A DNA stretch of 64,000 nt, taken from the NCBI GenBank assembly GCA_020055645.1, contig CM034548.1:48476296-48540295 (forward strand). Reading direction: 5' to 3'. Positions 12,845 through 58,231 of this stretch are shown one piece after another; position 1 is the first letter of the stretch, and every line of letters begins with the position of its first letter. The notes under the pieces were generated by a model. The model made no database searches. It was not told the DNA's origin and saw only the letters and a list, made by a program, of their open reading frames with translations. The DNA comes from Tomocerus qinae. Lineage: Eukaryota; Arthropoda; Collembola; Entomobryomorpha; Tomoceridae. The position numbers and the translations under genes are program-made.

Positions 12845-14194
12845 GTACGTACATCTCTTAGCATTCTTCATTCATATAATGCATGACAGCAACCTCGTGC
12901 AAATGTAGTGTCGGTAACAACGCGCCGTAAAATACTTTTCCTTTCCTTAGACAAATGTCTTTCTATACCAGATTTTCTCTTACAGCCTTTCCTACAACTC
13001 TCACCTGTGGGAATCAATTGGCAAACCGTAAATTCGCCAACCGTAAACCACATAGCCACAGCGTAAAACCGTGTAGTAATTGCAACCATTGTTTCTGGTA
13101 TTAACTGCATATTCTCGCCAAGCAGAAAATAACTTTCTTCAATCAATGTATACCTAATTTATCTATTTACAAATTATCGGAGCAGTTATTATTAAATGGA
13201 GCAATTTCTTTTCATAAAAATATGAATACTTTTATATGTATTCCACTCTTGTTCTACAAATGGACCTGTTGCAACTATTTAATTGGATCTCTAAACGTCG
13301 CATATACAGAGTTTAGCAAACATCGATGAAAGTGTCCCGTTGAATTATAATTATAATGAATAGGCAGGACTGCACTACACACACTGCACATTAATCTCCA
13401 TGCCTACAACTTCTTGTGACTGAATGCACCATACACTGTGTCTCAAACACGGCTACTACTATGTATTTCTATAGATACGACACAGGTAATCCTGCATTAG
13501 TGAATTTAAAGTTTTTCCTCATGTATGCCTACTATTGATGTAGGAATACTGCTGTTGAATATACTCTTATAGATCTTTTCAGTTAGCTGCTCCTTCTAGT
13601 CCGTTATCTCATCTGTTCATATACAAATATTTAATATGCCTTTCATTTTTATTGTATATACGTTCCATTTATAACACCGATTTAATACTAACATTAGATA
13701 TATTAATCATAATTTCACATTTTCTTTGCTGCAACAACAGTGAACTGGAAAATGTCTCAATGGAAATTCAGGGGACAAGAATACTCAGTGTAGAACAGAA
13801 TTTTGTCATACATGGGTATAATCTGTATAAACTTACAAAACATTTATTATGCAGCGAAAAATGCTCCTTTTTAACTTCAAGATGTATTTTTAACACATGT
13901 ATTTGGTTTTTATTGGTTGAATGGCGAAAACCAGTTTTTCAAGGTCTCTTTATTTTTTAATATAAGCCAATACTGTCGGTGTAGTGGAGTAGAGTGATCT
14001 TTACTATACTGCTTACTTCCGCAATTATTTTCAAGTTTTTCCCTTTTTCTCGAAAATCAAGTCGTACTCTGTTTCCGGCTACCGATTGCGATTCCACAAA
14101 CAGTGTTTATGTAGTACGTAAGTAGCAGACATGTTTAAATGAAATCAAGGTTAAAATATTTGAGACGTAGACTAAATTAATGGATTTAATGGAT
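12845..14194 (+). other. Start of putative hexokinase intron 1
   Basis: Noncoding. Nothing recognised before the minisatellite. The 102-codon ORF at 13652-13960 has no family signature. Confidence 0.4.
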
Positions 14195-14953
14195 GTCATT
14201 TATTTCAAATATTTCAAAATTGTCATTTATTTCAAGTATTTCCAAATTGTCATTTATTTCAAATATTTCCAACTTGTCATTTATTTCAAATATTTTCAAA
14301 TTGTCATTTATTTCAAATATTTCCAAATTGTCATTTATTTCAAATATTTCCAAATTGTCATTTATTTCAAATATTTCCAAATTGTCATTTATTTCAAATA
14401 TTTCCAAATTGTCATTTATTTCAAATATTTCCAAATTGTCATTTATTTCAAATATTTCCAAATTGTCATTTATTTCAAATATTTCCAAATTGTCATTTAT
14501 TTCAAATATTTCCAAATTGTCATTTATTTCAAATATTTCCAAATTGTCAATTATTTCATATATTTCCAAATTGTCATTTATTTCAAATATTTCCAAATTG
14601 TCATTTATTTCAAATATTTCCAAATTGTCATTTATTTCAAATATTTCCAAATTGTCATTTATTTCAAATATTTTCAAATTGTCAATTATTTCATATATTT
14701 CCAAATTGTCATTTATTTCAAATATTTCCAAATTGTCATTTATTTCAAATATTTTCAAATTGTCATTTATTTCAAATATTTTCAAATTGTCATTTATTTC
14801 ATATATTTCCAAATTGTCATTTATTTCATATATTTCCAAATTGTCATGTATTTCAAATATTTCCAAATTGTCATTTATTTCATATATTTCCAAATTGTCA
14901 TGTATTTCAAATATTTCCAAATTGTCATTTATTTCAAATATTTCAAATATTTA
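14195..14953. repeat. 27-bp minisatellite, about 28 copies
   Basis: The unit GTCATTTATTTCAAATATTTCCAAATT is repeated with few substitutions. Because 27 is divisible by three and the unit lacks stops in several frames, both strands show 240-265-codon ORFs with 9-residue periods (minus strand EIFEINDNL). These are almost surely not genes. Variants such as GTCAATTATTTCATATATTTCC recur 135 bp apart and GTCATGTATTTC units recur 54 bp apart, indicating block-wise expansion. Confidence 0.93.
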
Positions 14954-23966: not shown

Positions 23967-24120
23967 CAGGCATGTATCCAGAGGGGGGCTAAATCTAAAT
24001 CATAAGAAAAAGAGGTTTTTTGTCAAAAACGGGTAAAAATGAAAAAAATTGTGAGAATGTTACATTTTTACAAATATTTTTTGTGTTCCCTCCTTGGTCA
24101 AATTCCTGGATACGTAGCTG
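23967..24120. mobile_element. hAT MITE, GCACGTATCCAG family (copy B)
   Basis: Ends CAGGCATGTATCCAGAGG and TCCTGGATACGTAGCTG. Flanks TAATAAAC and TGATAAAC match in 7 of 8 positions. The interior has the shared TTTTTTGTCAAAAA and GGTCAAATTCCTGG blocks but has lost the central GCGC hairpin. Confidence 0.82.
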
Positions 24121-29299: not shown

Positions 29300-29462
29300 G
29301 TATTGGAAGTGTGCAATGAGTTGATTTTGACAGAAGAGACTCAGCACAAAGTAATGACATGTCTTCATAAAGAGTTGATCAAAGGACTCGGAAAAGATAC
29401 AAATGAAAAGGCCAAAGTCAAGTGTTTTCCAACTTACGTTCGAGATCTGCCTAACGGAAAAG
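29300..29462 (+). CDS. HK: Hexokinase exon E2 (N-terminal helix and start of small domain)
   Basis: Acceptor tttacag ends at 29299. The exon reads [14 protein letters not shown]..., then a basic helix and [14 protein letters not shown], matching the family block before the phosphate-1 motif. It starts in phase 0 and ends in phase 1 at a mediocre donor, AAAAG|gttaca. The next exon supplies AG to complete a Glu codon. Confidence 0.95.
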
Positions 29463-32400
29463 GTTACAAATAAATCATTTTTAACCTTGATTAGTAACGT
29501 ACTTCGTACCTCATGCCATACCTATACCAAACACCAAGCTAACCTTGCCTAACTATACCTACCTACCAACTACCTAAGCAAATTTTGTCTACGTTAGACG
29601 CACAGAAAGACTGTTAGGGCCGTTCGCAATACCTTACTACGATAGCTCGATAATAAGACGTCAATGTTGAGTATTGAGAGTTAAATAATAGTCCGAAATA
29701 ATATGTGTATCCTTTTTGATGGAGGATTATTGTGTATAAGCTTTGCGAGAATTGACCTGGAAAATATTTAATGTCGACGACAGTCTCTTTATTAAATACA
29801 GGGACGTTGAAAACAGAGTACCTCTGCAAATGCTAGTACCGTATATTTTTAGACTGGAAGGTATATAATGGCTCCCTCAGACCAGACTGAGAGCGATATC
29901 TGTGGTCATAATCAAGGACGTATTTAGGGGGGGGGGGTGCTAGGGTGCTTACCCCCTAAATTTTCCTAAAACCCACTAGATAATTCTCAAAAATTGATAA
30001 AAAGTAGTTTTATACATAAGAATAATCAGCTCGTATGTTTAAGCACCCCCTTAATTTGATTTTTGGATACGCCATTGGTCATAATTACAAGATAATTACT
30101 AAACGGTAATAACTAGAGAGATGATACTAGCGCCATCGATTAAAACTAGTCTAATTATTCTAGATTTGAAATCTTAGAAGATTCCCGATTCTTTTCATGG
30201 TGTAATTCCTTTTGAAGTCCCATTTCAAAGATATTACATCAATTTATTTTTACAAGTTTCACCTTTATTGCAATATCTTTTGATTGGGATGTCCTATCTT
30301 AATAATATTTCTAATCTAGAATGATTAGACTAGTTTTGATTGATGATGCTAGTATCATCTCTCTAGCTAATACCGTTTAGTATAATTATCATGTAATTAT
30401 TACCAACGGTATCCCTCTCAGTCTAGTCTGAGAGAGCGATTATATTATCTCTCACAGTCTCTTTATCCCTTTCAGTCTACCACATATACGCATGCTGTGC
30501 CTCACGGCGTGGAGTACTAAATTTATTATAGTATGCATTTTAGTTTTCTGAATAGACCTCGAAAATAAAAAGAATGAAAGATAAGAAGACAATGAAAACT
30601 CTCGCTTGACTGTGCTCACCGAGGTATATGCGTACCTAGTGAAGGAGTGTACAGTGTGTCTAATCAAGTGGACTTGTAGACATAATGGCGCAATGGATTG
30701 AGTAATGAGTAGGGACTAGGAGATGGTTGAAGTGAAGAGCATGAATTAAACACTGTAAAGTAGCACACAAATAAATAAAACACAAAACACTCAAAAATTA
30801 AACAATTAAAATTTATTTTTAAATCAGCAGTCTTAAAAATTATAAAAACGATTTTCTTCGACAAACTCGAAGCAACAAAAATAACGACGAAAATGTCGAT
30901 TTTTGTGCGAGTTGGTTGAAGCAAATCGCTTTTATAATTTCTAAGACTGCTGATTTATAAATAAATTTTAATTGTCTAATTTTTGAGTGTTTTGTGTTTT
31001 ATTTATTTGTGTACTACTTTACAATGTTTAATTCATTCTCTTCAAGCTCTTCAATCATCTCCTAGTCCCTACTCATTACTCAATACTTTGCGCCATTATG
31101 TCCACTAGTCCACTTGATTAGACACACTGTGCACTCCTTCACTAGGTACGCACAAGCACGTATCCAGAGGGGGGGCCGGGGGGGTCCGGGCCCCCCCTAA
31201 GTATCCAGAAAAAGGCAATTTTTTTGTCAAAAAAGGTGAAAAATCCAAAAAAATTTCGCGCTTCGCGCGAATATGACTTGAATTTATCAATATTTTTTGG
31301 TGGCCCCCCCTAGGTCAAATTCCTGGATACGTGCTTGGGTACGCATATACCTCGGTGAACCCAGTCGAGCGAGAGCTTCCATTGTCTTCTTATCTTTCAA
31401 TCTTTTTGTTTTCAAGGTCTATTCAGAAAACTAAAATGCATACTATAATACGATGGGCAACCTTTCCAGTCACCCTGAGTGAAAACAGTACACCCATCGT
31501 CGACAGCGAACCAAACAAATCTCAAAAAAGAGCTAATCACATTATGTCCAATAACCTATGTTCGATTTTGCAGAAATAAAACAATTTGCATGGCACTTGG
31601 CTAACCATATATCTTAACAGAGTAGAGTGACTACCGTAATAATCGTTAATTCGCTATAATAGTCGATATAATCCCCCGCATCGAAATAATTTCCCGAACG
31701 GGGAACTATATCGATCTTCCCCAGCAAATTGCAGCGTTTTAAACTATAATTTCCCGTATTGAAATAATTTCCCTGTCAAAACTAACGGCATTTAGTACGT
31801 GTACACTTACTGTAAGAACATGTGTACTGGGAATGGATACGGATGAATGGAGCAAAGAGTACAAAATTTTTGTATACTTCAAGAACATTGATTCTATAGT
31901 TACGGTAATGTATTGAGTGTAGCGTACGGTTAGCGATGGGTGGGAATTTTGATAATTTAAATAACCCTGGGTTGCTGAGGAGTTAACAATAATTCAGTTA
32001 TCAGTGAACACCTGCAAAGTAAAGTTAAAAAGAATTTTTACTTTCAAATTATGTGTTTTTCTAGCAATTTGATTTGATTTTTTTGAAGCTCACAACATTT
32101 TTCTCATCTACCAAAACATTTTCAAATAGTGTTTCTTTTAGTTATTTTTCTTTTAAACTACACCACAATGAAATATCCAAAACCTTGGGATTCGACATGA
32201 TATGCGAGGTCAGCAACCCCAAGTCAAATAAAACTAACTAGTGAAGTGACACTCTAAAATGCGTTTGTATGGGATTTTATGGATTGCATGGGACATAATA
32301 AGTTTTAAACTTCGTTATCCACGGGAAATTGATATCAGGTAGAACTGATCCTACCGCATTCTTCCATGAAAGAAGATTTTACCGAAATCTGTAGTGTAAA

Positions 32401-35400
32401 TTCATGTATCATGTAATCATGTAAAATCATCAATCACCGGTTAGTCTCACAATGCCATTTTGTCACTTTTTGAAAAACGCAATTTGTGCATGGGGAGCAT
32501 TTACTTATTAATGATTGATGACTATCATTAGTGGCATTTTAAACACATTACTTACATTATGACAGAGACTATTTATATTAAAGTTTGCCCGAATATCATG
32601 TAATGAAGATTGTGCGTTTGGCTGAAAGGAGTAAGGCTAGGAAACGTTCCGTTTAGCTATAGGCAGGTAGACCTCCTGTTTGGCTGATTGGCCTGTCTGG
32701 CGCTGACATATACTTTAAGGCTTAGTGTTCATTGAGCTACATATTATGATAATGTAAATAGAAAAAAACAAGAGCTATTTCGTTTTTCCGGAATGTCCAG
32801 TCCATAAACCTGTCATCAGTGTTGTGCAGTGGTTAAAACCACTAGTGGTCATAATGGCCATAATGGTCAAAATGGCCTGGTCAAAATGAAATTGAAAAGT
32901 GGTCAAAATGGTCAAAATGTAATTTGGGGCACTGTGAAACTACATTAAAGCCAAGGAGGCTACGTAGTTCCGCAGATGTACGAATTGCTGTTTACATTTT
33001 ACAAGTACTTTTTATGACCAGTATGACAATAATTTCATTTTGTAGCATTCGGTATTTAAAATTTCAGATTAAATTCATGACGGGCACATTAAATAATAAA
33101 AATTACATTCTCAGAAGTATATATTCTCGATTGTAAGGCAACATAATTCTTACATCGTACCTGTGATGTATCTAGAGAAATTTAAAATACCTATTTCTGA
33201 CTCCGACGTAGGATTTCTGTAGTAGAAGGTTACATAAGTTAATATTTCGTAGCCAATTTAAGAGGACATGCAGTGCAGATATAACCATCCAGTCATAATA
33301 TTCATTATTATTATCCTAAATATGCTTAAAGTTGAGTATTTATTTGACTGAATTATGCTAAAGATCGTATTTCTATTGAAAATATTTGATATTCTATATA
33401 GTTAGGTACGATTTGTTATTCAAAACATATGATAACAGTTTAAGTATTTAAAACAGGCGCGGGTCTAGTACGCATGTGCAAGTGATGACGCGCATTTTGA
33501 CCATTTTGACCATTATGACCATTTTGACCATTTTGACCAGTGGCCTGGTCAAAATGCAAAAAAGTGGTCATTAGTACAACACTGCCTGTCATACCTACAC
33601 ATTGTTTGTCTTAGTGTATGAATGTCCGTGTAACGTTTGTATGAATACAATTAGACAACATTTTATTACTATATAGCTAATTGCAGTAGCCATACCTTGG
33701 CTACTGTACCTAAATAGGTAGGTGGTATAATATATAGCTGAGCAAGTAAGTAATTCAGACAATTTCAATTCAAATAAAAAAACTGCTTTCCAAAAAGGGA
33801 CACTTAATAGGTATAATAGGCAGTTAGTTTTATCCCTTAGTGTAACTTTGGGCTTTGCGTAGGGTAAGTCTTTACGCGGCTTCCTTTTCGAAGCTTACTT
33901 ACACTACGGTTACGTAGAATAGTTAGTGATTTTCCGTAAGTATTTGGTTGCTAGGTGCCACAATTTCGAAAATTAACTTTGTAGAATAAACATGAATAAT
34001 GCCAGTCGCCTGGGTAACTACATCCTGGGAGGGCACTAGGGCACTTGCGTATGCCCGTAAGTCTGAAACGTAGTGTAGTCATTTTTACGTTTCGCAACTC
34101 AATTTTTCTGGCGTAGCCTAGGATTCTTACGGAAAGGGGAGGAGTTTGACGTAAGACTTACACTACGGGAGGCTCATTCTTACACTACGAGAAAAAACTA
34201 ACTGCCTAATATATAGCTGTAATCAGAATCTATTCCTTTCCAATATTTCGCCATGTACTTAGATATATTTTAAATTGAAAGTACATATGAATTTCAATTG
34301 TATCGCTTTCTGATGATTTATCTTACAAACACAATGTTAACATATTAAACAGTGGCCAGTAATTTTTTCTTCTAATTCCAGTTTTTGTTGTTGATTCTTT
34401 TCAGAGCTGGGTAAATTTTTAGCTCTGGACTTGGGCGGGACAAACTTCAGGGTTCTGTTGATTGAGTTGGGAGGCGACAACAAGACCCCTTCCAAATTCA
34501 AGATGCTGTCCAAGATTTTTGCTGTTCCTCAGCACATAATGCTGGGGCCTGGAACTGGGGTACTTGCATCATTATCAATTTGCCTGTTTCCATATTATAT
34601 ATTAATTGTTAATCCCGGCAACACTGCTGGTTATTTATTAACCGAGAATACATGGCCCAATTTATTAAAGACAATAAGAAGCTAAATACAGACTATGTAA
34701 AAAGCATTTGATAGTTGATTGTATTAATTGCTGTTTTAGTTGTTCGATCATATAGCGGAATGCCTTTCAATATTCATGAACGAACATTGTGTTCAAAATG
34801 AGAAGCTACCTTTAGGCTTCACATTTTCATTTCCATGTCGTCAAGAAGGTCTCACCAAGGCGCGACTGGCCACTTGGACAAAAGGCTTCAACTGCTCCGG
34901 AGTGGAAGGCGAGGACGTCGTCAGACTTCTGCAGGAAGCCATTAAAAAACGAGGGGTATGTTTTCACTATCACTATTTGCAAATGTATCATCATGAATTG
35001 ACTTGATAGGGACATAAAATACTGGTAAATTTGAAACCATTGTGCATTTGGTCAGGTAGGGACATTTATCGTAAATCCGTTCAGAAATTTTTAAACTCTC
35101 ATTGCACCACATTTTATTGAATTTAATTTACTCATTACTTGCATTATTTTTGTTTTCATATTCCTTAATTCTTCAACACCGATTTTATTTTGTTTCTCTA
35201 AAATTGTGGATAGATTAAATTAGTTGACAACAGCTAATTGAATAACAGGATGTTGAAAAAGAAACATTTTCGTAATGTGTTGAACATTTGGTTTTTAAAT
35301 TGAATTCTCTTTGCGAGTCATCCCTTGATCTTCATCGCCTTAATTCCTCCCAATTGTATATTTGTTTGAACAAAAAGAAAATAGAACATAATAAAGCAAA

Positions 35401-38400
35401 TTAACTTACCTACATAAGGAATTACTCCAAATTTCCAACACGTCATTTTGTCACTTTTTGTCAACACAATGAACGTTATGGTGTTCAGAATTCTGTGTAG
35501 GCGATAAATTCTAGTAAAGAATATCATTACATACATAATAGATATATATATATATATCAAGAATATCATATACATTACAAAATGGCGTCTCATTTATTTT
35601 TGTTAAACTACATTCAGTTTTATTACTCATGGTAGAATTAATTAACACCGAGCATCAAAGTGAAGCTAAGTATCTACCTCATTAATAATTGCATTTTTAC
35701 AATTACACAGAAGTTACCATTTATAAAAAATATTCCTTTTTGTTACATACAAGTGTAGAAGAAAATCTGGACTGTCGAGACATTGTATATAGTGAGAGTT
35801 GACGCTGATTATTTATGTTCAGTTTCTCTAACTGAATCTATTTTCAAATGTCTGCAATAGTAGATTTTATTGCTCTAGCGATTGAAGCCTATTTGATAAG
35901 TGTAATAATATTTTGCGTGTAATTTGAAACGACTATTTGCATTGTAACTTTTAACTCAATAACGATAATACCTTGGTCGTTTCACTGTCAAATTGGTGGC
36001 ATTATTAGTTGTACAGACAGATAGAAATAGAAGACCCATACATATTCAATAACATTTTTAAGTATTTATAATAATGATTTGGAATATTCATGCCAAATAA
36101 TTAGTTTCCATTCTCTCAGTAAAATTTGAAACAAAATATCAATTTAAACATATTATTTTAGATGTAAATAAATCTAACGTACAAATATTAGTTTAAGAAA
36201 CCATCAGGGCATTGGCAAAGTATATATTATTATTATGTTACAAGAAATGTGTACAGACCGGACATAATATTTGGATATTTGTGAATGGGGTGTCGAACGC
36301 AGGACGCTATGCCAAACTAGTACTACTAACTGGGGATTGAAAATTATTAGCACTTAAATGAATATGATTCACTAAGGCACTTCCAGACGGGTCGTAAATC
36401 CGGCTGGTTCGGTATGGTAAAAGAATGTCAATTAATGACGATGAGATGTGGTGATTGTTGAGGTTGAGTGACAATTGGTGTCAGGAGAATGGCTGATTAG
36501 ACTAGGCAGGCTTCGGTTAATTCCAGTTCGGCTGGTCAACTTTGCTAGCTAGCTAAAATGCGTGTACTTTATCGAAACTGTGTTTACTAAATAAAGCACT
36601 GATGGAACGGTAGTTATTTACTAACTACTAACTAATTTATTTAATTATAAAAAGATGTGACAAGTGAAGTAGGAACTTGCACGTTGTCACGAGAGAGAAT
36701 TACAAAGATGCTTTCGGGAAGCAAGAATGAGAGTGAATGCTCGTTGAGCGTCTAGAATCCAATATGGAATTGTGAATGACAGGAATAGCTAAGGCACTTC
36801 CAGACGGGTCGTAAATCCGGCTGGTTCGGTATGGTAAAAGAATGTCAATTAATGACGATGAGATGTGGTGATTGTTGAGGTTGAGTGACAATTGGTGTCA
36901 GGAGAATGGCTGATTAGACTAGGCAGGCTTCGGTTAATTCCAGTTCGGCTGGTCAACTTTGCTAGCTAGCTAAAATGCGTGTACTTTATCGAAACTGTGT
37001 TTACTAAATAAAGCACTGATGGAACGGTAGTTATTTACTAACTACTAACTAATTTATTTAATTATAAAAAGATGTGACAAGTGAAGTAGGAACTTGCACG
37101 TTGTCACGAGAGAGAATTACAAAGATGCTTTCGGGAAGCAAGAATGAGAGTGAATGCTCGTTGAGCGTCTAGAATCCAATATGGAATTGTGAATGACAGG
37201 AATAGCTTAGAATAATGCTTAATAATTACAACTTGATTGAGTGGAATTAAAATAGAATAAAAATGCACTTCTGGGTGCGTGGTCTGGAAAAAGGATAAAA
37301 GTTACCACGAGAGGTCTCGTACAATTTGTATTTTTAAAGAATCTAACCTAATTTAAAACAACTTGTTGACAGTCAAATGTGCTTTCGTGTAGGTTTGATT
37401 AATTAAAATTAGGCGAAGGTCGTTAAAAATCAAAATTTAGATTTTTAAAAATACATAGGCATATTCTACGCATTTTGCATATGTCCGGTGTGTACAAATT
37501 TCCTGTAAAATATATTTTATTTTTAACTCAAGACATCATTATTTAAAGCAATATGTTTCGTAATTTCTAGGTATCTGAGTTTGAAAGTTGATGTGATAAT
37601 TAAGTTCTATAATGTAATGTGGTTTTTATTACTAATGCTGCGATGAAAAAGGAAAAGGTGAAAATTTTTCTTAGATACTGCTGAACCATATATGCAGGCG
37701 CCGGCAGATACCAACCGACAAGACTTGAGGTTCGCCTATTCTATTTCAATCTATTTCAGCCGCACAGAAACCGACAGGCTTCGTCAACCTACCACCTACC
37801 CAATATGCGGTATCATTGTACCTTAGCATAGATAACTAAACCTAACCAATGACAGCAGGCTGCAATTCCATTTTAGTAAGAGATATTCATGTCATTACAA
37901 TTTATTCAAATGAGTGACTAACCTGTACACTGCATAATACAACTAAACTAACTCACTGCAGTCATTTTTATTGTCGTTGAATGTCAGCGACAATGCTATA
38001 ATATAGACCGACGTTGTACTAAATAGGTAGTTTATCATTATCGCTAATAATGTAATGGTAAGGTACACTGATATCGCATGTTGGGTTAGGTTGAATAAGT
38101 CTGTCGGGTTCTGTGCGGCTGAAATAACTGCGGACCTTCTAAGCTTTGTCGGATGGTATCTGTTGGCGCCTGTACACATTTATCTAAATAATCATTAGTA
38201 GTGATGATGTAACTATTACACATTCGTTTCCTTCGATGACATTCAATATAGTTTCTAAATTGTTTGAACATAATTTTGATCGAGAAATGAAAGAGACGTC
38301 CATACTGTGAATGATCAGTTCCTGCCACATCCCTTACCAACGAGACAAAAGAATCATTCATGCATCCCACGTCAATAGATTATTATATAGATTCGTATAT

Positions 38401-41400
38401 TCCGCAGGAACTGCCGCACAAAGCCCATTTTAATTGATGCCATTAATTATTATATACTTACTAATTCGTATCGTCAGTCAGCCGCCTCAAAGAGACTCAT
38501 CACCGCCATTACCATTGATGACGGTGTCACAAATACAATGAACATGCGGAGAGGCAAGGGTAAAGCCCATGGAATCCAAAAATAAGAATTTTTTTCCTCA
38601 AAGTAGCAAAATTTTTTGCGCGAGAAGCGCGAATATATTATAATGGTGAACATGCCTACATGAAATTTTAGGCGTCCCCGAAATTCAGTAAACGTGCTTG
38701 TAGAGAAGGTCTTTTCCATTCGAGATGTGTAAACAGCTTAGTATCCTATAACATAATGACAATGAATAGCTAAATGTGGCTGTACGTTGTATTGATGTCT
38801 GATAATATGGAGGTCTCCCTCTTCTTAACCAAATCTGATATAAGAATGAACACTTCTCTATAGCCGGGTTTTAAAATACCACCGTAAAACACACCTCAAC
38901 TTTCTCATCTGTACTCAGATCTTATGAAATTGTTAGAGGTGTTGAGAATCGTATAGTTACATTAGTCAGCTTAACGAAAATGTGTAACTACGAGACCATG
39001 AAGTCAATTATGACATCACTGGACTCGTTTAGTTTTAATGTATTTATGTAATTATTAATTAACTCAGTGCATTATACTTGTTTGAAATTTATATGAGATT
39101 AACTAAAGTTAACAATCGATTGAATATTAAATAAGGACGTCGAGATTGACGTTTTGGCAGCCTTAAATGACACTACTGGAACTCTCATGTCATGTGCGTA
39201 CAAAAACCCGAATTGCCGTGTCGGTTTGATTGTGGGTGAGAATATTTCTCTATCAATCGCAGAAATGATCACTAAGTTATACTTTATCACAGTCAATGTT
39301 TTTAATTTCATTTGTAGTTGCCGTAAGTCAGTTTTCATTCTAATTTCTAATTAAATCAAAAACTATAATTGTTGGTAATTGCATAAATCCAGTTTCCGAT
39401 TTTTGTTTTGTATTTAAATGGCATGTTTTCATGGAAAATAGGGTACTAGCAAGCACGTATCCAGGAATTTGACCTAGGAGGGGCACACCAAAATATATTA
39501 GTAAAATTATGGCATATTCGCCCGAAGCGCGAAATTTTTTTGGATTTTTAACCTTTTTTGACAAAAAAATCGTCTTTTTCTGGAAGCTTAGGGAGGGGGC
39601 GGGCCCCCCGGCCCCCCTCTGGATACGTGCTTGGGTACTATAACGCACTGTAATTGTTTAAAAAGGATTTAAGATAAAAAGTATTTTTTAAAAGTACTGA
39701 AAATGTTTATTACTATTAAAATACTTACTTAATATTCTCTCATTATATTATCCATTAGTTTGTTCTTGGTCTTCATTTTTTAGTGCTTAAACTATTTATA
39801 AATAAAGATATCCCATCAAATGACAATATTGAGTGCTAGGCTGGGTCTCCTATGGTCATGGTTCTATCATGAGTAAAACATAAGGTGAATTCAAATTCCG
39901 TTTGTTATAGCCATGTTATAGCGTTAAGCTCGTTATTTATGTTAAGATAACGAAGTGTTATGGCGTGACGTCACATCTCCTACTCTTTTACACAGTTATA
40001 TTTTAACGCATTATCATAACATTTTAACCACCTAGGAGGGCATGTTTTTTCTATAACAAATTCGTTATATCCTTTGACAGAAGCGCCAAGAAACAAAAGT
40101 CTGTCAAATTGTTAGTTCACTCACTACTCGTATTACTTTTTTGTTTTTTAATGCAAATGATTTGTTGGGCAATTCAAAAACCAAAATGAATTTTGATGGA
40201 CGTAATTTTTACATCAACGACTTACAACAACATATGAGAAACTTGAAAGCCTGAACAAACCAAAATAATTCAGCCATCAAAAGACGTGGAACCAAAAAAG
40301 AAATTCAGTGAAATTGGACATTCAATCCAAAAAAGAGCATCTCGATTTTGAAAGACTGAAATGGAAAGAAGAATTAGAACAGCGAAAAGTAGCCGAAGAT
40401 AGGAAGCATGAATTGGAAAAATTAAAACTTCAAAATGATGCTGAGTTGGCGAAAATGAAATTTTAAATTAGCTCAAGAGTTTGAACTCGAAAAACTTCGT
40501 ATGTAGATGTAAATTAACTAATTATTTTTATTTGTTCACTCATATGTGGTCATCGTCCATTTATCCAATTAAATAAATCTCTTCTTCGCTCTTCCCCAAG
40601 ATTACAATCTTATCTATAACATTGTTCTGCTTCGTCGTCACCGTCCACTTCATCTAGTGGACCAATAGGTCTAGTATCTAGTTCTGGTAGTTGCCCATAG
40701 TATATTAAAAATTCCGTCGTAAAATACTTTTTCAATCAGTTTCTTACGCTCTGATCTTCGTACCATTTTGAGTTTTGCGATAGAAAAAGTTGAAATTACA
40801 ATTTGACTAAATATTAAATTTCGCGGTGCTATATAACACTAAAACTAAAAGGTTTATTTACTCCAGCAGAGGGGTCTTCAAATTTAAACGGTGTTAAACT
40901 GTTAAATGATTAAAGCTTAACAAATAACAAAAGAATTTGAGTTCACCTATAATTTTTATGCTTAAACAACTAATGAATACGAGGATATGTTTATTAGTGA
41001 CGTCGGTTATTGATTTGCCTACCTTACTTGGCTTAGTGGACGGGTCAAATGTTTATTTTACATAGGATGAGAGTAGTTAAGATGTACATGATTTTAAAAG
41101 CTTATTTCCTATTTATTGTCATAATTACTTATCAATGTTGACTAATCTAATCTTGGGTGGTTTCAGTTGGTTAATTTGGTATAATTTAACAAGCACGGCT
41201 ATATATAATAACCCATTATAAAGCTATTTATGATTTATTTAATTTTTAATCTTAGGCAAGGGTTTGATGAAATGTCGTCCATTTATACTTTCCTTATTAT
41301 TTATCGTTCCATTCTGCTGCTCTGGTGTCGTGTTTAGGTATTGGTAGTTACATGCCTGTAATTAAAATTAGTCTACTTGATGCACCTAAATACATTGAAG

Positions 41401-44400
41401 TGAAACTCCTTAGGAGTGAGAGCTTAAATACCAAATTCGCTATTATACTTTCCAAATTTTTAAGTAAACAGACAATAAATATTATATATTCCTATCGTTT
41501 CAAGTCTAGGGAACAATTCTAAATGTTCGAATCCCTGTTATTTTAATCAATCCTGTTGCTTTAATTAACTGCACTATCATACTTGTTATTTTAGTCAATC
41601 CCATTAACTAATCCTCTGTGAATTTAATAAACCGCACTGTTTTAATCTTCTTTGTTGTTTAGTCGACGAGGTTACTTTATTTAAATACCCGCATTATTTT
41701 AATCAAACCCATCATTTTAAACTTTTTATTTTAATCAAACCCATTATTTTAAACTTTTTATTTTAATCAAACCCATTATTTTAAACTTTTTATTTTAATC
41801 AAACCCAATGTTTTATTAACTCCACTATTTTAATTGGCCCAAATATTTTTTTTAGTTTGAGTCAACTTTGATTCTTTTATTTTAGTATTCTATTTTATAT
41901 ACTGTATTTTATTTTTTTTATTCTTATCTGCATTTATATTTTATTATTTTTATTCTTATTTTTATTCTACATTTTATTGCTTTAATTAGTGTTATTAGTT
42001 AAGTTAGTTCTAATCCCTTTACATTTACAAAGCCCTGCAGTCTTAAAAAGTAGGGCTTTACCAAATTTTTGAAATTCACTAACAAATTTTTGAAATGAAA
42101 TATTGAAAAATTAAGATGGTTTAAGTAGGCCGAAGTTTGATAAATATCGGATAAAAACTGTAGGAGGAGATAACGAAAGAAGCGTGACAGACGCAGACGG
42201 GTGCTTTCTCATACTCCTTGCATATTAAAATTCGAATTTCAAAAACTATAAGGAAGTTGTCTTTGTGAAACTCGAAGTTTAAGGAGTTGCTGTGAAGTAC
42301 ATCTATAGAAAAAGTTTGAAAGAAGTCGCATTTTCGTTGCGTTTGAATATACCTTTTCAGGGTTAGGCACTTTTGGTGGGCCAACATAGACAGTCCACGT
42401 ACCTTGTTCATGTTCTGCCCACCAAAAGTGCCTCGGCCGGAAAATGTCTATTACTATGATTTCTGTTACTAATATTATAATGAACTAGTGAACCCAGCTA
42501 AGGGGCGAACCTGGCACTCAAGAGAAATTAAGCAGGCCACCCATCACAGTAATAAAAACAATTCCGGGTCAAATGGTAAAATTCTTAAACCAAAATCATA
42601 ACTGTATTTCGTAGTGTCCAATACAGGGAATAATAAAATACTCTATTTTTAATAAACACCCCAGAATGTTCCCCTTAAAAATCAGAAAAATATGATTCCG
42701 GGATTTTGGAAAACGGATTGTCTTCTTTGGCTAACTATTTCTAATCAATCACCAATAATCATCTTATGTGAATTTGTATTATTGTTCTGATGTTATAATA
42801 ATATGAAACAACTCATTTCGTTTGTTTAGAGGGGGGCATGCGCATTTTGCTTTCGTGCTTTCAAGGAACGTGCGTATATTACGTTTATAGTTGATGGGAG
42901 GAGGCGATGTCCAAAAGATTTACAGCTAGCACTTGCGCTACACTTGGAAAAGGGGGTTTTAGGTTACGTAATATATGCAGGTTTCCTAGGCTCTCCTACC
43001 AAGACATAGATAGTCAGGTATTAGTGCGATTATATTATAGAAAAAGACGTGGCCCAAACCGAAACATTGTAACAAGTCGTAGCCATCGGAGTAAATCTAT
43101 TTAGTATTAAATTAAGAATTGTTTCTAAGGGTAGTTTTATTTCAGTTGTATATTTGCTTTGGTTTTCAGGAGCACATCTTCAGATTGGGCAAAACTTTAA
43201 AATATGTATTACTAACCCTTGTTCTACTCTTCTACTCTTAATGTCCAAAAGTGAGGGAAAAGATGAAAAACTTGTTATTAACTAATATATTTGGCAAAAT
43301 GTAAAGCAGTGCATAAATTAGGCCAATTTTAAGTGTTAAGGCAAGTTTCACTTGGCGTTTATACCATAGAAATGATGAGGTATTGTAAATTGATAATATT
43401 TCTTAAATATTTTGCCTTTTGTTTTTATGTACATTAATAAAACAATCAACCTCCACTCTGGGTCACATGTTTGTTGATGCCTAAGTTGTTTGAAATTCAA
43501 AAGTGGTAGCCTAGTAATTTTTAAGATAGCGACATGAATACAAGGCGACAGAATTATTTCACGCGCATGTCCCACTCCGCGTTTATCCAATAGTACAATT
43601 CTCTATGAGGAAATAAGTAAAATGCATTTTATCGGATGGTATTGATGGTAATGAAACTTACACAGAGCCGTATTCTTGTAATTTAGGATGTGCAAATCAC
43701 TGTTTGCGCCATTCTGAACGACACAACGGGGACCTTAATGTCTTGTGCATGGCTCAATCCAAACTGTCGCATTGGGCTTATTGTTGGTACGTCTTCATCC
43801 ATATCAAAGGACAAAAATTATCATGCATTCACAATTTTGGAGGATTTACTGACTCATCGTCGGTTTTCATGCCTATTAGTCGAGTCTCACAATTAAGTTA
43901 ACAATAAATTAGATCTTCTTTATTTCTCTGCTGTAATTCCATTAGCAGAAATGTTTGACATTTTTATATTGTTTTAATTTTTATCCACAAAAAGAAGTAA
44001 CTTCGTCAACTCTGTAGAGCCCAAAGCCCATAATATAATGATACTTTGTGATGATCATGATGATGCAATGTGATAGATCTCTTTTGTCTTTTTGTTTTGA
44101 TCGTTTTATTTATACAAATTTTCATTTGTGAAATCTCTTCTTCAAAGTCTTCCACGATATAAAATGTTTATTTGTTTCTTAATTCTGACATTTAACTGCT
44201 GCCATCAAGAAACAATTTATTGTTAACTTAAATTCTTTTAGTTTCCGTTATTTGATTTGATTTTGGAGCAAGTAGTTAAAATCGTTTTTCAGATTGTGTG
44301 CTATGTTCGCCAGTATTGTACGTAGTTGTAGTCCGTGCCGTGGTTAGTCTAGTTAGTGTTGTTATTAGTAGACAGCAGGAATATTAAAATTAGCATTTAT

Positions 44401-47003
44401 TGTGCCCTATGCGTCTGCCTTCTACTTTTTGTTTTCTTCGTTGGTTTGGAGTTGTTTTTGTCATTGGTGTTTTACATCTTTGTTTTTATTCGTGTTCGGG
44501 TGTTCCTATTTTGTGTTTACAATTGTTGTTTCACAAACTTGTATGTATGCATCACATTTATACCCACACTGTCGACCTTTTAGTGCAATCCCCACGTGTG
44601 TGCAACCAGTTTTTAATATCCACCAGCAGATTACAACTTAACATACTGCTACCTTTGACCTTGCCTATATTTACATTCTCTTAGGTATTTTAGTTATTAC
44701 TCACTTATTATTATTTTGCTGCAAATAGAATGTTTTAGTCCAAATTAACCGGTATATTTGCACACGAAAACATTTTATTTTCCCTGTGGAAAATAAACAA
44801 CCAGGCACGTACCCAGAAATATATGGTCGACAAATAATTATAGAAAAACAAAAAGATAATGCGATTTTTGACCTTTTTTGGGAAAAGCCTTCTTTTTTTC
44901 TCATATTTAGCACGGGGGTTGGCCCTCCGATTCCTAAAAAAAGGTAATACCTCGCAACCATAGGTAAAATTTTAAAATTTTTCAACGTACTTGGTTAAAA
45001 CAACCTTTTCTGCGTTTTTAGAGGCCTATTCTTGTCTTTCTACGACCAGTAATCTCGGAGGAGTTTCAAGTTTTCCAAAAAAGTATTTTTCTGTATTGTC
45101 ATAGAGTAAATTTCTATGCCTCTATGTACTTTTAAAACGTAGCCATTAGCAACTTCCCCGTGACCTTTACTTGACCTTTATTTATTGAATTCCCCCGTAT
45201 TTTGAAAACCCCTGAGCCTTAATCAAATCCTTTTATATATTACTCCTGTGGAAAATGGACTAAAATTGTCCCAAAATGGCCTGGAATTTTTTAAAACAGT
45301 AACAACTTGCTTTTTCATGCCTTGGATGTTAAAACTAGTTTATAAGTATAGGCTGAGATAACATCATTTATTTCTTTTCAAATGCTTTACTTATTGGCTA
45401 GCAGTATGTATAATTAAAACTACTTGGAAGGGAATCCACATTCTAACTTTATTGCTTGGTGAATACATCTTTGACTGTAGTAGAATGTTTAATTTATTGT
45501 TTAATTAAATATACCTACCTAATAGCTTTTACTATGCTTTTATAATTTCGTCCTTTAAATATTCTTTCTCTGGACCGTCCATTTTTGATATTTGATTTAA
45601 TTGTGCAAGTAGGCATTAAGCAGTTTAAATTCGACGTTTAAAACTAGGTACATTTTTATTCGTTATTTTAAACATATTCTAACTATCAATTTCCATGTTA
45701 AACAAAAGGTACTGGCTCCAATGCTTGCTACGTGGAGAAATTGGAAAATGTTCAACTGTGGGACGGGGATTTAGATGAACCTCAGCAGGTTAGAAATTTT
45801 TACTTTTTAGAATATAATAAAATTACAGTGTCAGAAATTTCCCATTATCAAATATCTTTAAAGGTTAGTTTGAAGATGTTATTTTAATTTCTCGAAATTA
45901 AAATTCACTAAAAAGCAGTTTATTGATATTTGCTAATAAATAGTTAATTAGCAATATAATAGCTCTAAATTATTATTGATTGTGTGTTGCTTCTATTGGG
46001 GCAGGTAATTGTGAATACTGAGTGGGGGGCGTTTGGAGATGACGGTGCTCTTGACTTTGTAATCACTGAATACGATAGAGATATTGACGAATATTCCGTC
46101 AACAAAGGGAAACAACTGTAAGACCTATTCTGTTTCTTGATAACCGCGATATTTTTCTTCCTGTAAATTAGGACAAAGTAACATGAACTCCTGTCTTGCT
46201 TATTTCAGTTTTGAGAAAATGATATCGGGAATGTATATGGGAGAGTTAGCTCGACTGGTGATAGTAAAATTGACGAAAGAAGGTGTTCTTTTCAAAGGAG
46301 ACCCTTCAGAACTATTGCTTCAACGGGGAAACTTTTTCACCAAGTACATTTCAGAAATAGAAAGGTATGTTCTGCCATATTTGTGTTTGCAGTTCTGGGG
46401 GAGTCTGTCGACAGATTGAAAGAATGGCTGCAACTCATTCGACTTGTTAATTTGCAGTGATAAAGCGGGCGAGTTCCACAATTGCCGTCAAGTGTTAGAG
46501 GAGTTGTGCTTGAATTTTATCAGCGACCAAGACTGCCAAGATGTTCGGTATATTTGTGAGGTAGTCTCCAAACGAGCAGCTCAGCTGGCAGCCTCTGGAG
46601 TCGCTTGTCTTCTGAATAAAGTAACGAATTTTCTTTACCTTCAACTTAATTGCACTGAAAAGCTCTAACCTAACTGAACTACAATAGATGAATGAGAAAA
46701 GTGTTGTCGTCGCGGTCGATGGCTCCGTTTACCGCTTCCACCCCCATTTCCATAATATGATGACAGAGACAATACTGAGACTGGCAAACCCGGACATCAA
46801 GGTAGGAAAACTCCCGTCGTGCCCTAACTGACCATTCTGGTCTGCAAAGCCATGATTGTCAGTAAGCTAAGAATGTGTCATTAAATAATGTGAAATGCCA
46901 TTTTCAGTTCGATCTGATGTTGTCTGAAGACGGAAGCGGGAGAGGAGCTGCCCTTGTGGCCGCCGTTGCCTCTAGGAAACAACACGAACTGGATTCCCAA
47001 TAG
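29300..47003 (+). CDS. HK: Hexokinase, spliced coding region E2-E11 (start codon not included)
   Basis: Hexokinase phosphorylates glucose and other hexoses with ATP at the entry to glycolysis, normally in the cytosol or on mitochondria. Joining 29300-29462, 34405-34559, 34740-34955, 39136-39235 or 43687-43786, 45709-45788, 46005-46117, 46209-46364, 46458-46620, 46688-46801 and 46908-47003 gives 1356 nt, that is 451 residues and TAG, with every junction in phase. Numbering from the first residue of E2, visible family motifs are LDLGGTNFR (62-70, phosphate 1), TFSFPC and TWTKGF in E4 (sugar-binding lobe), NDTTGT with the catalytic Asp near 190, GTGSNACY (212-219), [11 protein letters not shown] (242-252), VAVDGSVY in E10 and [12 protein letters not shown] near the C-terminus. 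The length fits a single-domain hexokinase rather than the 100-kDa tandem vertebrate type. The missing N-terminus is probably one short upstream exon. The family call is very secure; paralogue identity is not resolved. Confidence 0.97.
29864..30444. mobile_element. Foldback element interrupted by a nested MITE
   Basis: The outer ends TATAATGGCTCCCTCAGACCA and the inverse of TCTGAGAGAGCGATTATA match, as do inner blocks such as AGAGAGATGATACTAGC and AAAACTAGTCTAAT. The left arm is split by the 165-bp copy-C MITE at 29913-30077. Without it both arms run at about 230 bp. It lies in the E2-E3 intron. Confidence 0.7.
29913..30077. mobile_element. hAT MITE (copy C) nested in the foldback element
   Basis: Ends CAAGGACGTATTTAGGGGG and TTTTGGATACGCCATTG, with exact 8-bp duplications GTCATAAT at 29905-29912 and 30078-30085. 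A sequence diverged from the other copies but with the same end design. Confidence 0.85.
30524..31450. repeat. Large palindrome, arms of about 335 bp
   Basis: 30524-30857 and 30917-31450 are inverted copies with only scattered mismatches, around a spacer of about 60 bp. The right arm is longer by 193 bp because it contains the copy-D MITE and its duplicated target. No coding frame is shared between the arms. It may be a foldback transposon or a local inverted duplication in the E2-E3 intron. Confidence 0.88.
31153..31337. mobile_element. hAT MITE, GCACGTATCCAG family (copy D)
   Basis: The terminal inverted repeats CAAGCACGTATCCAG and CTGGATACGTGCTTG are perfect, with exact duplications GGTACGCA at 31145-31152 and 31338-31345. 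G-run/C-run blocks sit just inside, and a central TTTCGCGCTTCGCGCGAA hairpin. At 185 bp it is the best-preserved copy. Confidence 0.93.
31640..31775. repeat. Palindromic GGGGAATTATTTCGA cluster
   Basis: Repeats CGATATAATCCCCC, CATCGAAATAATTTCCCG and CGGGGAACTATATCGAT in alternating orientation, of the same motif family as 4180-4265 and 26105-26215. Confidence 0.5.
31776..32800. other. Intronic noncoding stretch, nothing recognised
   Basis: AT-rich DNA in the E2-E3 intron without repeats I could define. Confidence 0.5.
32817..33584. mobile_element. Non-autonomous hAT element, 768 bp, with TGGTCAAAA arrays
   Basis: Ends CAGTGTTGTGCAGTGG and GTACAACACTG are inverse and exact 8-bp duplications CCTGTCAT flank it (32809-32816, 33585-33592). 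Both subterminal regions are arrays of TGGTCAAAA/TGGTCATAA in opposite orientations, a plausible set of transposase binding sites. The middle is AT-rich without a transposase. Confidence 0.92.
33818..34209. mobile_element. TIR element, GGCAGTTAGTTTT type
   Basis: Left GGCAGTTAGTTTTATCCCTTAGTGTAA is mirrored by the right TTACACTACGAGAAAAAACTAACTGCC. Between them are repeated CTTACACTACGG and ACGTAAGAC words. Flanks share TAATA, too short to define the superfamily. It lies 195 bp before exon E3. Confidence 0.65.
34405..34559 (+). CDS. HK: Hexokinase exon E3 (phosphate-1 motif)
   Basis: Acceptor ttttcag ends at 34404. It encodes [19 protein letters not shown], with the conserved [12 protein letters not shown]-phosphate loop, then a small-domain strand region ending in MLGPGTG. 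Phase 1 in, phase 0 out at GGG|gtactt. Read-through past the donor only extends an ORF into intron and matches nothing in the family. Confidence 0.97.
34740..34955 (+). CDS. HK: Hexokinase exon E4 (sugar-binding lobe)
   Basis: Acceptor gttttag ends at 34739. The 72 codons start [13 protein letters not shown] and include [13 protein letters not shown] and ATWTKGF, the hexokinase signature around the glucose site, and finish EAIKKRG before gtatgt. It is phase 0 on both sides, so either copy of E5 can follow without disturbing its own frame. Confidence 0.97.
34956..36371. other. Intronic noncoding stretch (E4-E5a intron)
   Basis: AT-rich. Nothing recognised apart from a short TA run near 35540. 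Confidence 0.5.
36372..37207 (+). repeat. Perfect 417-bp tandem duplication
   Basis: 36372-36788 is followed directly by an apparently identical copy at 36789-37205. The first bases of a third unit (CT) end at the junction. I saw no mismatch between copies. No coding frame or element ends. It lies in the E4-E5a intron. Confidence 0.92.
37210..39135. other. Rest of the E4-E5a intron
   Basis: Noncoding. A patch near 38570-38660 contains AAAATTTTTTGCGCGAGAAGCGCGAATAT, matching the core hairpin of the hAT MITE family, but its ends are not recognisable, so it is at best a decayed copy. Confidence 0.4.
39136..39235 (+). CDS. HK: Hexokinase exon E5a, first of two alternative catalytic exons
   Basis: 100 nt, phase 0 in and phase 1 out, donor GTGG|gtgaga. 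It encodes [20 protein letters not shown] then [13 protein letters not shown], with the catalytic Asp of the NDT motif at exon residue 12. Residues 4-7 (IDVL) fit the usual family form, with Asp at position 5. The acceptor is weak: the upstream 40 bases are purine-rich and end ttaaataag. E5b, 4.45 kb downstream, encodes the same block. Only one copy can be used per mRNA, because including both would shift the frame. Confidence 0.93.
39450..39633. mobile_element. hAT MITE, GCACGTATCCAG family (copy E)
   Basis: Ends CAAGCACGTATCCAGGAATT and CTCTGGATACGTGCTTG. Flanks GGTACTAG and GGTACTAT match in 7 of 8 bases. Central GCGCGAAATTTTTTTGG and TTTTTTGACAAAAAAATCG as in copies A and D, in the opposite orientation to copy D. 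It begins 214 bp after the E5a donor. Confidence 0.9.
39883..40948. mobile_element. PIF/Harbinger-like element relic
   Basis: Ends AGGTGAATTCAAATTCCGTTT and the inverse of AAAAGAATTTGAGTTCACCT match, flanked by ATA on both sides, a 3-bp duplication as in PIF/Harbinger. Inside, plus-strand pieces around 40300-40470 read [20 protein letters not shown] and [19 protein letters not shown], like the coiled-coil tail of the Harbinger Myb/SANT-like protein. On the minus strand, 40763 downwards reads [18 protein letters not shown]. All frames are broken. It sits between E5a and E5b. Confidence 0.6.
40949..41529. other. Intronic noncoding stretch between the alternative exons
   Basis: No gene or element recognised between the Harbinger relic and the AT-rich tandem repeat. 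Confidence 0.5.
41530..41990. repeat. AT-rich repeat containing a 32-bp tandem array
   Basis: A unit of ACCCATTATTTTAAACTTTT plus TATTTTAATCAA repeats about three times near 41700-41810, within a longer run of TTTTAATCAA and TTGTTATTTTAGTCAA words related to 20560-20830 on the other strand. Confidence 0.6.
42366..42433. repeat. Hairpin GGCACTTTTGGTGGGC
   Basis: Arms of 16 bp are exactly inverse (GGCACTTTTGGTGGGC and GCCCACCAAAAGTGCC) around a loop of about 36 bases. A small foldback element or hairpin in the E5a-E5b intron. Confidence 0.6.
42487..43035 (-). repeat. Inverted partial copy of the 5600-7135 repeat
   Basis: Reverse complement reads CTAGTGAACCCAGC..., CACTCAAGAGAAATT..., and further in ATATATGCAGG and AGGAGAGCCTAGG, the same blocks as the copy at 5.6-7.1 kb but without the internal duplication. 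It lies in the intron between hexokinase E5a and E5b. Confidence 0.65.
43687..43786 (+). CDS. HK: Hexokinase exon E5b, second of two alternative catalytic exons
   Basis: 100 nt with a good acceptor (tgtaatttag) and donor GTTG|gtacgt, in the same phases as E5a. It encodes [20 protein letters not shown] then [13 protein letters not shown]. The catalytic Asp and the [11 protein letters not shown] core are unchanged. Seven residues differ from E5a: E to Q, D to T, L to C, A to I, Y to W, K to L and V to I. Among 25 shared non-Met residues, 21 codons differ silently, so the copy is old and has stayed under protein-level selection. It is not a pseudoexon on this evidence. Confidence 0.93.
43787..45708 (+). 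other. E5b-E6 intron
   Basis: 1.9 kb. It contains the decayed copy-F MITE at 44802-44994; the rest is AT- and T-rich with no gene. Confidence 0.6.
44802..44994. mobile_element. Decayed hAT MITE (copy F)
   Basis: Starts CAGGCACGTACCCAG and ends AACGTACTTG, with the shared TTTTTGACCTTTTTTGGGAAAA block. The central hairpin is lost, and no matching target duplication remains. Confidence 0.6.
45709..45788 (+). CDS. HK: Hexokinase exon E6
   Basis: Acceptor aacaaaag ends at 45708. Its GT completes the Gly split after either E5 copy, giving [15 protein letters not shown], the conserved sugar and nucleotide-contacting turn, followed by [16 protein letters not shown]. Phase 1 in, phase 0 out at CAG|gttaga. 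Confidence 0.95.
46005..46117 (+). CDS. HK: Hexokinase exon E7
   Basis: Acceptor ggggcag ends at 46004. It encodes [18 protein letters not shown], the conserved large-domain motif whose Glu contacts glucose in known hexokinases, then [16 protein letters not shown]. Phase 0 in, phase 2 out at CT|gtaaga. Confidence 0.97.
46209..46364 (+). CDS. HK: Hexokinase exon E8
   Basis: Acceptor tatttcag ends at 46208. The split Leu is followed by [17 protein letters not shown], a highly conserved helix, then the segment ending [10 protein letters not shown]. Phase 2 in and phase 2 out at AG|gtatgt. Confidence 0.97.
46458..46620 (+). CDS. HK: Hexokinase exon E9
   Basis: Acceptor atttgcag ends at 46457. 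It encodes [20 protein letters not shown] and the conserved helix [20 protein letters not shown]. Phase 2 in, phase 0 out at AAA|gtaacg. Confidence 0.97.
46688..46801 (+). CDS. HK: Hexokinase exon E10
   Basis: Acceptor ctacaatag ends at 46687. The 38 codons include [16 protein letters not shown], the phosphate-2 (VDGS) motif, then a helix ending ANPDIK. Phase 0 on both sides; donor AAG|gtagga. Confidence 0.97.
46908..47003 (+). CDS. HK: Hexokinase last coding exon E11
   Basis: Acceptor ccattttcag ends at 46907. It encodes [20 protein letters not shown], the adenosine-binding motif, then a short tail RKQHELDSQ and TAG at 47001-47003. Confidence 0.97.
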   Translation, partial: FDLMLSEDGSGRGAALVAAVASRKQHELDSQ

Positions 47004-50899: not shown

Positions 50900-51070
50900 A
50901 CACCCTCACTTACTCCCTCACTCTTTCCCTCACTCCCTCACTCACTCCCTCACTCTTTCCCTCACTCCCTCACTCACTCCCTCACTCACTCCCTCACTCA
51001 CTCCCTCACTCACTCCCTCACTCACTCCCTCACTCACTCCCTCACTCACTCCCTCACTCACCTCCTCACC
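50900..51070. repeat. CTCACTCACTCC simple tandem repeat
   Basis: About 170 bp of CTCACTCC/CTCTTTCC variants with a main 12-bp period. It gives Pro/Ser/His/Leu repeat ORFs that are not genes. Confidence 0.92.
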
Positions 51071-57522: not shown

Positions 57523-58231
57523 CACCTTTTTGTCAAAAAACGTTTCTTAAATCCTTTTTGTCAACAAACGTTTTTTAAATCCTTTTTGTCAACAAACATT
57601 TTTTAAATCCTTTTTGTCAACAAACGTTTTTTAAATCCTTTTTGTCAACAAACGTTTTTTAAATCCTTTTTGTCAGCAAACGTTTTTTAAATCCTTTTTG
57701 TCAACAAACGTTTTTTAAATCCTTTTTGCCAACAAACGTTTTTTAAATCCTTTTTGTCAACAAACGTTTTTTAAATCCTTTTTGTCAACAAACGTTTTTT
57801 AAATCCTTTTTGTCAACAAACGTTTTTAAATCCTTTTTGTCAAAAAACGTTTTTTAAATCCTTTTTGTCAACACAAAACCTTTTTGTTAACATATTGACT
57901 TTAAGCATTGTCGATGACTCAGTAGTTCAGTTGCCTGCCTCATTCTCAACCGCCCAAGTAAGTTTCGCAAGAAACACTGAACTTTGAAAGAACAATTTGC
58001 ACAATTGCTATTGTCGTTAAAGAAACGGAAAATTCTATGAAGAAAATAAGGGGTGATTATTAATTTGGACTTGCTAATGATATTATCTGTTTATGTAATT
58101 CATTTCCTTCACTCTATTATAATGCTAGAAATAACACTGGCTAGTGTTGACAAAAAGGAAAGCGATGGTGACAAAAAGGATTTTTGATATTTTTTGGTCT
58201 GTTGGCAATTTAGTGTTGACAAAAGGGGGTG
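57523..58231. mobile_element. Putative foldback-type element with tandem-repeat end
   Basis: The left outer word CACCTTTTTGTCAA is mirrored at the right by TTGACAAAAGGGGGTG. The right end also holds spaced GTTGACAAAAAGGA and GTGACAAAAAGGA copies, inverse to the left minisatellite unit. Similar sub-repeated ends occur in the MULE relic at 17.3 kb, but no transposase or flanking duplication is seen. Confidence 0.45.
57526..57890. repeat. 28-bp minisatellite, about 13 copies
   Basis: The unit TTTTTGTCAACAAACGTTTTTTAAATCC is repeated with very few substitutions. It lies at the left end of a larger structure reaching 58231. Confidence 0.93.

Follow-up and report, generated by a model that had tools for sequence, protein, structure and literature searches.

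A putatively mutually exclusive pair of exons around the catalytic aspartate of a hexokinase gene in the collembolan Tomocerus qinae

A single-domain animal hexokinase gene of Tomocerus qinae carries two versions, here termed 5a and 5b, of the exon that encodes its catalytic aspartate. We consider it likely, with a probability of about 0.8, that the two form a mutually exclusive pair, in which the exon was duplicated alone long ago, both copies were kept by selection, and a single copy is productively used per pre-mRNA. Hexokinase, which traps sugar inside cells, controls how sugar enters metabolism; in animals, the best-known source of variation in this enzyme is the possession of several genes.

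The gene and its two versions of exon 5

The window analyzed here is a stretch of 64,000 nucleotides (assembly GCA_020055645.1, contig CM034548.1, positions 48,476,296 to 48,540,295). The hexokinase gene lies on its plus strand, where exons 2 to 11 were assembled (29300–47003, through the stop codon) with consistent phases and AG/GT splice sites; the first coding exon lies upstream, outside the model, and the 451-residue product is partial. Exon 2 (29300–29462; 163 nt, phase 0 to 1) is followed by exon 3 (34405–34559; 155 nt, phase 1 to 0), which carries a 13-residue motif, and by exon 4 (34740–34955; 216 nt, phase 0 to 0), which equals human GCK exons 4 and 5 joined (120 + 96 nt). The two versions of the next exon occupy 39136–39235 (5a) and 43687–43786 (5b); both are 100 nt long, run from phase 0 to 1, and encode 33 residues with the catalytic Asp at codon 12, and the acceptor of 5a is poor in pyrimidines. 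The remainder of the gene comprises exon 6 (45709–45788; 80 nt, phase 1 to 0), exon 7 (46005–46117; 113 nt, phase 0 to 2), exon 8 (46209–46364; 156 nt, phase 2 to 2, the length of human GCK exon 8), exon 9 (46458–46620; 163 nt, phase 2 to 0), exon 10 (46688–46801; 114 nt, phase 0 to 0), and the coding part of exon 11 (46908–47003), which ends in a TAG stop. The introns are of the GT-AG type, and none was judged by eye to be minor-spliceosomal.

With either version of exon 5, the predicted product is free of stops and exceeds the curated cut-offs of both Pfam hexokinase families. Hexokinase_1 (PF00349) scores 239.5 bits with 5b and 237.9 bits with 5a, covering positions 4–201 of a 201-position profile, and Hexokinase_2 (PF03727) scores 285.3 and 284.6 bits, respectively, over its whole profile. 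The catalytic Asp, assigned by alignment to Asp205 of human glucokinase, is residue 190 of the partial product and resides in an NDT motif; a 10-residue motif, which we take to play its usual role in hexokinases, is also present.

The window is punctuated by repeats. Between exons 2 and 3, the intron contains nested inverted repeats (30524–31450; arms of 104–137 nt, 93–94% complementary) that look like a foldback transposable element. Between exons 4 and 5a it holds two tandem copies of a 417-bp unit with 100% matches (36372–37207), which either were duplicated very recently or reflect an error of assembly. Tandem arrays are found at 14194–14948 (27-bp unit, 28 copies, 96% matches), 50903–51069 (12-bp CCCTCACTCACT, 13.6 copies), and 57525–57873 (28-bp unit, 12.5 copies).

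Divergence, selection, and ancestry of the two copies

The preliminary description of this locus had reported two equally long exons encoding the same active-site block, and the details of that report are borne out. The copies lie 4,451 nt apart, share their phases, and are each preceded by an acceptor AG and followed by a GT donor (GTGAGA for 5a, GTACGT for 5b). They agree at 26 of 33 residues, including an unchanged 11-residue core, and at 59 of 100 bases; among the 25 shared residues other than Met, 21 are specified by different codons. The seven residues that differ flank the catalytic Asp, with E/Q, D/T, L/C, and A/I (5a/5b) before it and Y/W, K/L, and V/I after it.

Identity is distributed very unevenly over the codon, at 25, 28, and 5 of 33 for first, second, and third positions, and 12 of the 13 comparable fourfold sites differ; by the NG86 method dN is 0.22 and dS is not computable. 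Local alignment of the two exons scores 20, a value reached by none of 200 base shuffles (8.2 ± 1.5); for the 300-nt flanks, where 30 and 18 of 200 shuffles match the observed scores, no clear similarity emerges. Given that third positions are saturated while the residues are kept, both copies appear to have been under selection for a long time. Simulated neutral copies of 5a (n = 4,000) remained stop-free with 26 residues kept in 0.2% of cases at 0.3 substitutions per site, and in none at 0.5 or above. At 0.2 substitutions per site 4% were stop-free with at least 26 residues kept; at 0.1, 69% were stop-free and 49% also kept at least 26 residues. The saturation, the conserved residues, and the simulations together back the earlier view of two ancient copies under selection: the duplication appears to lie beyond dating by silent sites, and protein-level selection on both copies is indicated for most of the time since. 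If one copy fell out of use within the last ~0.1 substitutions per site, its sequence might not yet show it. There is, in addition, some faint indication that silent sites have been pushed apart: the copies use the same codon at 4 of 25 residues, against 8.8 expected when codons are drawn independently according to the usage of this gene (P 0.027 by simulation). Such a shortage may stem from copy-specific splicing signals or from the avoidance of gene conversion.

The origin of the duplicated unit can be approached through the exon structure of human glucokinase. Human GCK exon 2 would, assuming a start at c.46, measure 163 nt, as does exon 2 of T. qinae. The GCK exon ends stated in a published table (c.208, c.579, c.679, and c.1019) or implied by its other entries (c.363, c.483, and c.863 for exons 3, 4, and 7) yield lengths of 155, 120, 96, 100, 184, and 156 nt for exons 3 to 8 (PMC11919142), and the matching stretches in T. 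qinae measure 155, 216 (120 + 96), 100, 193 (80 + 113), and 156 nt. GCK exon 6 spans c.580–679, starting after Gly193 and ending inside the Gly227 codon (PMC11919142), and is thereby 100 nt long like 5a and 5b; as they do, it carries the catalytic Asp, Asp205 (PMC10131484). The human gene has this exon in single copy, in contrast to the two copies in T. qinae. Because length, phases, and boundaries all coincide, exon 5 is most simply read as an old animal exon that was copied alone, its length and phases probably inherited from an early animal hexokinase. It follows that the odd length of 100 nt, being shared with the human exon, is probably ancestral and in itself no sign of evolved exclusivity. 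We know of no alternative version of human GCK exon 6.

The doubling appears to have struck exon 5 only. When the assembly was searched in six frames, with the best 12 candidates scored, the matches listed place the block at 5a, at 5b, and in one paralogue on another contig. Among the 15 assembly-search matches, no exon other than exon 5 was hit twice on the gene's own contig (C3), and neither duplicated neighboring exons on that contig, which would signal a second gene, nor a third copy of exon 5 were found; a third copy was likewise absent from the window at tblastn E below 1. The paralogue, a second hexokinase gene (contig C5, 21544937–21547075), shares 53% identity with the window gene across a stretch of 182 residues. 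This stretch lies in one open frame in the paralogue, exon 5 block and neighboring sequence included, and is split over several exons in the window gene. A search for relatives with a 263-residue piece in genome and viral contig collections returned 19 and 2 pattern matches, respectively, none of them confirmed.

Comparison with other hexokinases distinguishes the two copies. Six rows were used, namely human glucokinase, the C5 paralogue, the N and C halves of hexokinase-1 (without the first residue and the first two residues, respectively), and the N and C halves of hexokinase-2. Where the two copies differ, 5a matches glucokinase at four of the seven positions and agrees with the C half of hexokinase-1 three times, with the N half of hexokinase-1 and both halves of hexokinase-2 twice each, and with the paralogue once. 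The corresponding counts for 5b are two for the paralogue, one for the N half of hexokinase-2, and zero for glucokinase, both halves of hexokinase-1, and the C half of hexokinase-2. Over the whole block, all five vertebrate rows have higher identity to 5a than to 5b; the paralogue shares 16 residues with 5a and 17 with 5b and is equidistant by BLOSUM62 score. Both copies keep the same seven of the eight positions that are invariant across the six rows, including N, D, T, T, and G, and position 7, Val in all six, is Leu in 5a and Cys in 5b. On these alignments, 5a appears as the copy nearer to the vertebrate enzymes and 5b as the divergent one.

Reading frame, splice sites, and competing explanations

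The proposal that only one copy can be used per mRNA holds for productive mRNA. Inclusion of either copy alone leaves the frame open, inclusion of both leads to a stop after 267 residues, and skipping of both to a stop after 199; since double inclusion and double skipping break the frame, only single inclusion is productive. Such exclusivity is a property of the frame and no proof of regulation. The two exons are, moreover, homologous and adjacent, alike in length and phases, and equipped with intact AG and GT sites. As judged from these features, 5a and 5b are very probably a real and functional mutually exclusive pair, through which splicing probably makes two types of enzyme from one gene.

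How the choice is made may be written in part in the acceptors. That of 5a has 7 pyrimidines of 16 and a longest pyrimidine run of 2 within 30 nt, the lowest on both counts among the 11 acceptors scored; that of 5b has 10 of 16 and a longest run of 5. As such, 5b is expected to be the default copy and 5a to be in need of help, and 5a may be rarely used, its polypyrimidine tract being all but absent. Upstream of the 5a acceptor, the next AG lies at a distance of 27 nt. The 4,451-nt spacing would argue against simple steric exclusion or crowding. In 12 duplex comparisons between 500-nt stretches, a method insensitive to short sites, no intron pairing that might impose exclusive use was conspicuous, and 7 of 40 shuffles did as well as the best pairing. 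A dispersed repeat occurs at 31168–31308 and again, in opposite orientation, at 39480–39620; the two copies are 84% complementary over 141 nt and could pair in the pre-mRNA. The second starts 245 nt past the last base of exon 5a, and a related motif is also found at 23974.

The same feeble acceptor lends itself to another reading, in which 5b is the sole working exon and 5a a relic whose acceptor strength was recently lost and which is spliced rarely or never; the simulations accommodate this, as a recent loss would leave the coding sequence still unmarked. We deem it unlikely. The 5a exon is open and retains as many of the family-invariant residues as 5b does. Its acceptor AG sits precisely at the boundary, its donor is a GT, and an in-frame stop would be brought in if splicing moved to the next AG upstream. 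In five of six comparisons, the paralogue being the exception, the other hexokinases resemble 5a more closely than 5b. The frame itself suggests a further alternative, that one copy serves as a poison exon whose joint inclusion shifts the frame and cuts hexokinase output via nonsense-mediated decay, as the early stop after double inclusion would allow. A poison exon would, however, have no need to keep most of its residues and the catalytic motif at a saturated synonymous distance, which renders this account quite improbable; poisoning could be an added role and hardly the main one.

Assembly duplicates can in general arise from split haplotypes, and a second copy might also be a fragment of a second hexokinase gene. 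We give such explanations very little credence, considering that the flanks of the two exons are not clearly alike, that no other exon of the gene is matched twice on its contig among the matches listed, and that the one further hexokinase among those matches is located on a different contig, where its block shares an open frame with the neighboring sequence. Moreover, 41 of 100 bases differ between 5a and 5b, and the reading as an assembly artefact was rejected on that count.

Under the favored explanation of a mutually exclusive pair, an ancestral 100-nt exon with the catalytic Asp would have been duplicated alone inside its own gene long ago, and both copies, to judge from their divergence pattern, would have been maintained by selection since. 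Each pre-mRNA would productively take one copy. The choice would most likely hinge on the acceptors, that of 5a being weak and that of 5b better, and trans-acting factors would presumably promote 5a where it is wanted. Frame failure and nonsense-mediated decay would clear the products of double or no inclusion. The two resulting enzymes would share the same chemistry; with the differing segments flanking the catalytic Asp, glucose affinity or the domain-closing step would probably be altered.

Likely consequences and relation to known systems

Anchored on Asp205 of glucokinase, block position 22 (Y in 5a, W in 5b) corresponds to Tyr215 and block position 5 (D in 5a, T in 5b) to Asp198. Hex-A of Drosophila may have the Trp form at the former position. 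In the human enzyme, D205H is catalytically dead, Y215A chiefly speeds glucose binding, and Y214A and Y214C favor the active state (PMC10131484), while helix alpha5 with Tyr215 may touch residue 455, part of the allosteric site (PMC8563668). Met197, the neighbor of Asp198, gives rise to activating mutants, of which M197V lowers the glucose S0.5 from 7.63 to 2.57 mmol/L, and lies 19 A away from the activator site (PMC6825936); the equivalent position is Ile in both 5a and 5b. Some of the differences between 5a and 5b thus appear, by homology, to sit where small changes shift the glucose response. An altered response in T. qinae may follow by analogy, and its enzyme may lack cooperativity altogether. 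The preliminary description had suggested that splicing could switch kinetics or sugar preference. A switch in kinetics is plausible in view of the Y/W exchange at the Tyr215 position; a change in sugar preference finds no support of its own, because the 11-residue core is identical in both copies.

Alternation of this kind has precedents in other enzymes. Ketohexokinase (KHK) belongs to a different protein family, with a PfkB/ribokinase fold, and exons 9 and 10 of the pyruvate kinase gene PKM encode an effector and interface region, not a catalytic residue. In the shrimp Litopenaeus vannamei, two lactate dehydrogenase subunits reportedly arise from one gene by alternative splicing; this is an arthropod glycolytic enzyme like the T. 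qinae hexokinase, yet a different one. Mammalian KHK is a sugar kinase with mutually exclusive catalytic-domain exons, 3A and 3C, whose isoforms differ in catalytic activity or fructose affinity and in tissue use (PMC13296549, PMC6464065); its alternation, unlike the one proposed for T. qinae, has been shown in RNA, and in a vertebrate. Mammalian PKM is likewise a glycolytic enzyme, distinct from hexokinase, whose mutually exclusive exons 9 and 10 alter activity and regulation (PMC13296549). The latter source, a review from 2026 on cancer metabolism and splicing, discusses both PKM and KHK and contains no word beginning with "hexokinase" (PMC13296549). Among the titles and abstract openings listed by searches of an open-access collection, no hexokinase with such exons was met, in line with the initial impression. 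Automatic insect gene annotations may already carry both isoforms without comment. Mutually exclusive exons in enzymes of sugar metabolism are already known; what the present analysis adds is the match of the hexokinase exon to human glucokinase exon 6.

With a splice switch at the catalytic segment, a single gene would be able to provide two enzymes of different kinetics. More tentatively, and with the odds in our estimate somewhat against it, the gene may yield two hexokinases of different glucose affinity or response by exchanging the exon with the catalytic Asp and the adjacent helix. The 5a version would then resemble the vertebrate enzymes, 5b would be tuned to a different tissue or stage, and evolution would have preserved both for a long time. 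If true, this would be a splicing counterpart of the vertebrate split between hexokinases and glucokinase. The pair would also offer a natural experiment, in which two evolved segments around the catalytic Asp differ at a site that alters the glucose response in human glucokinase.
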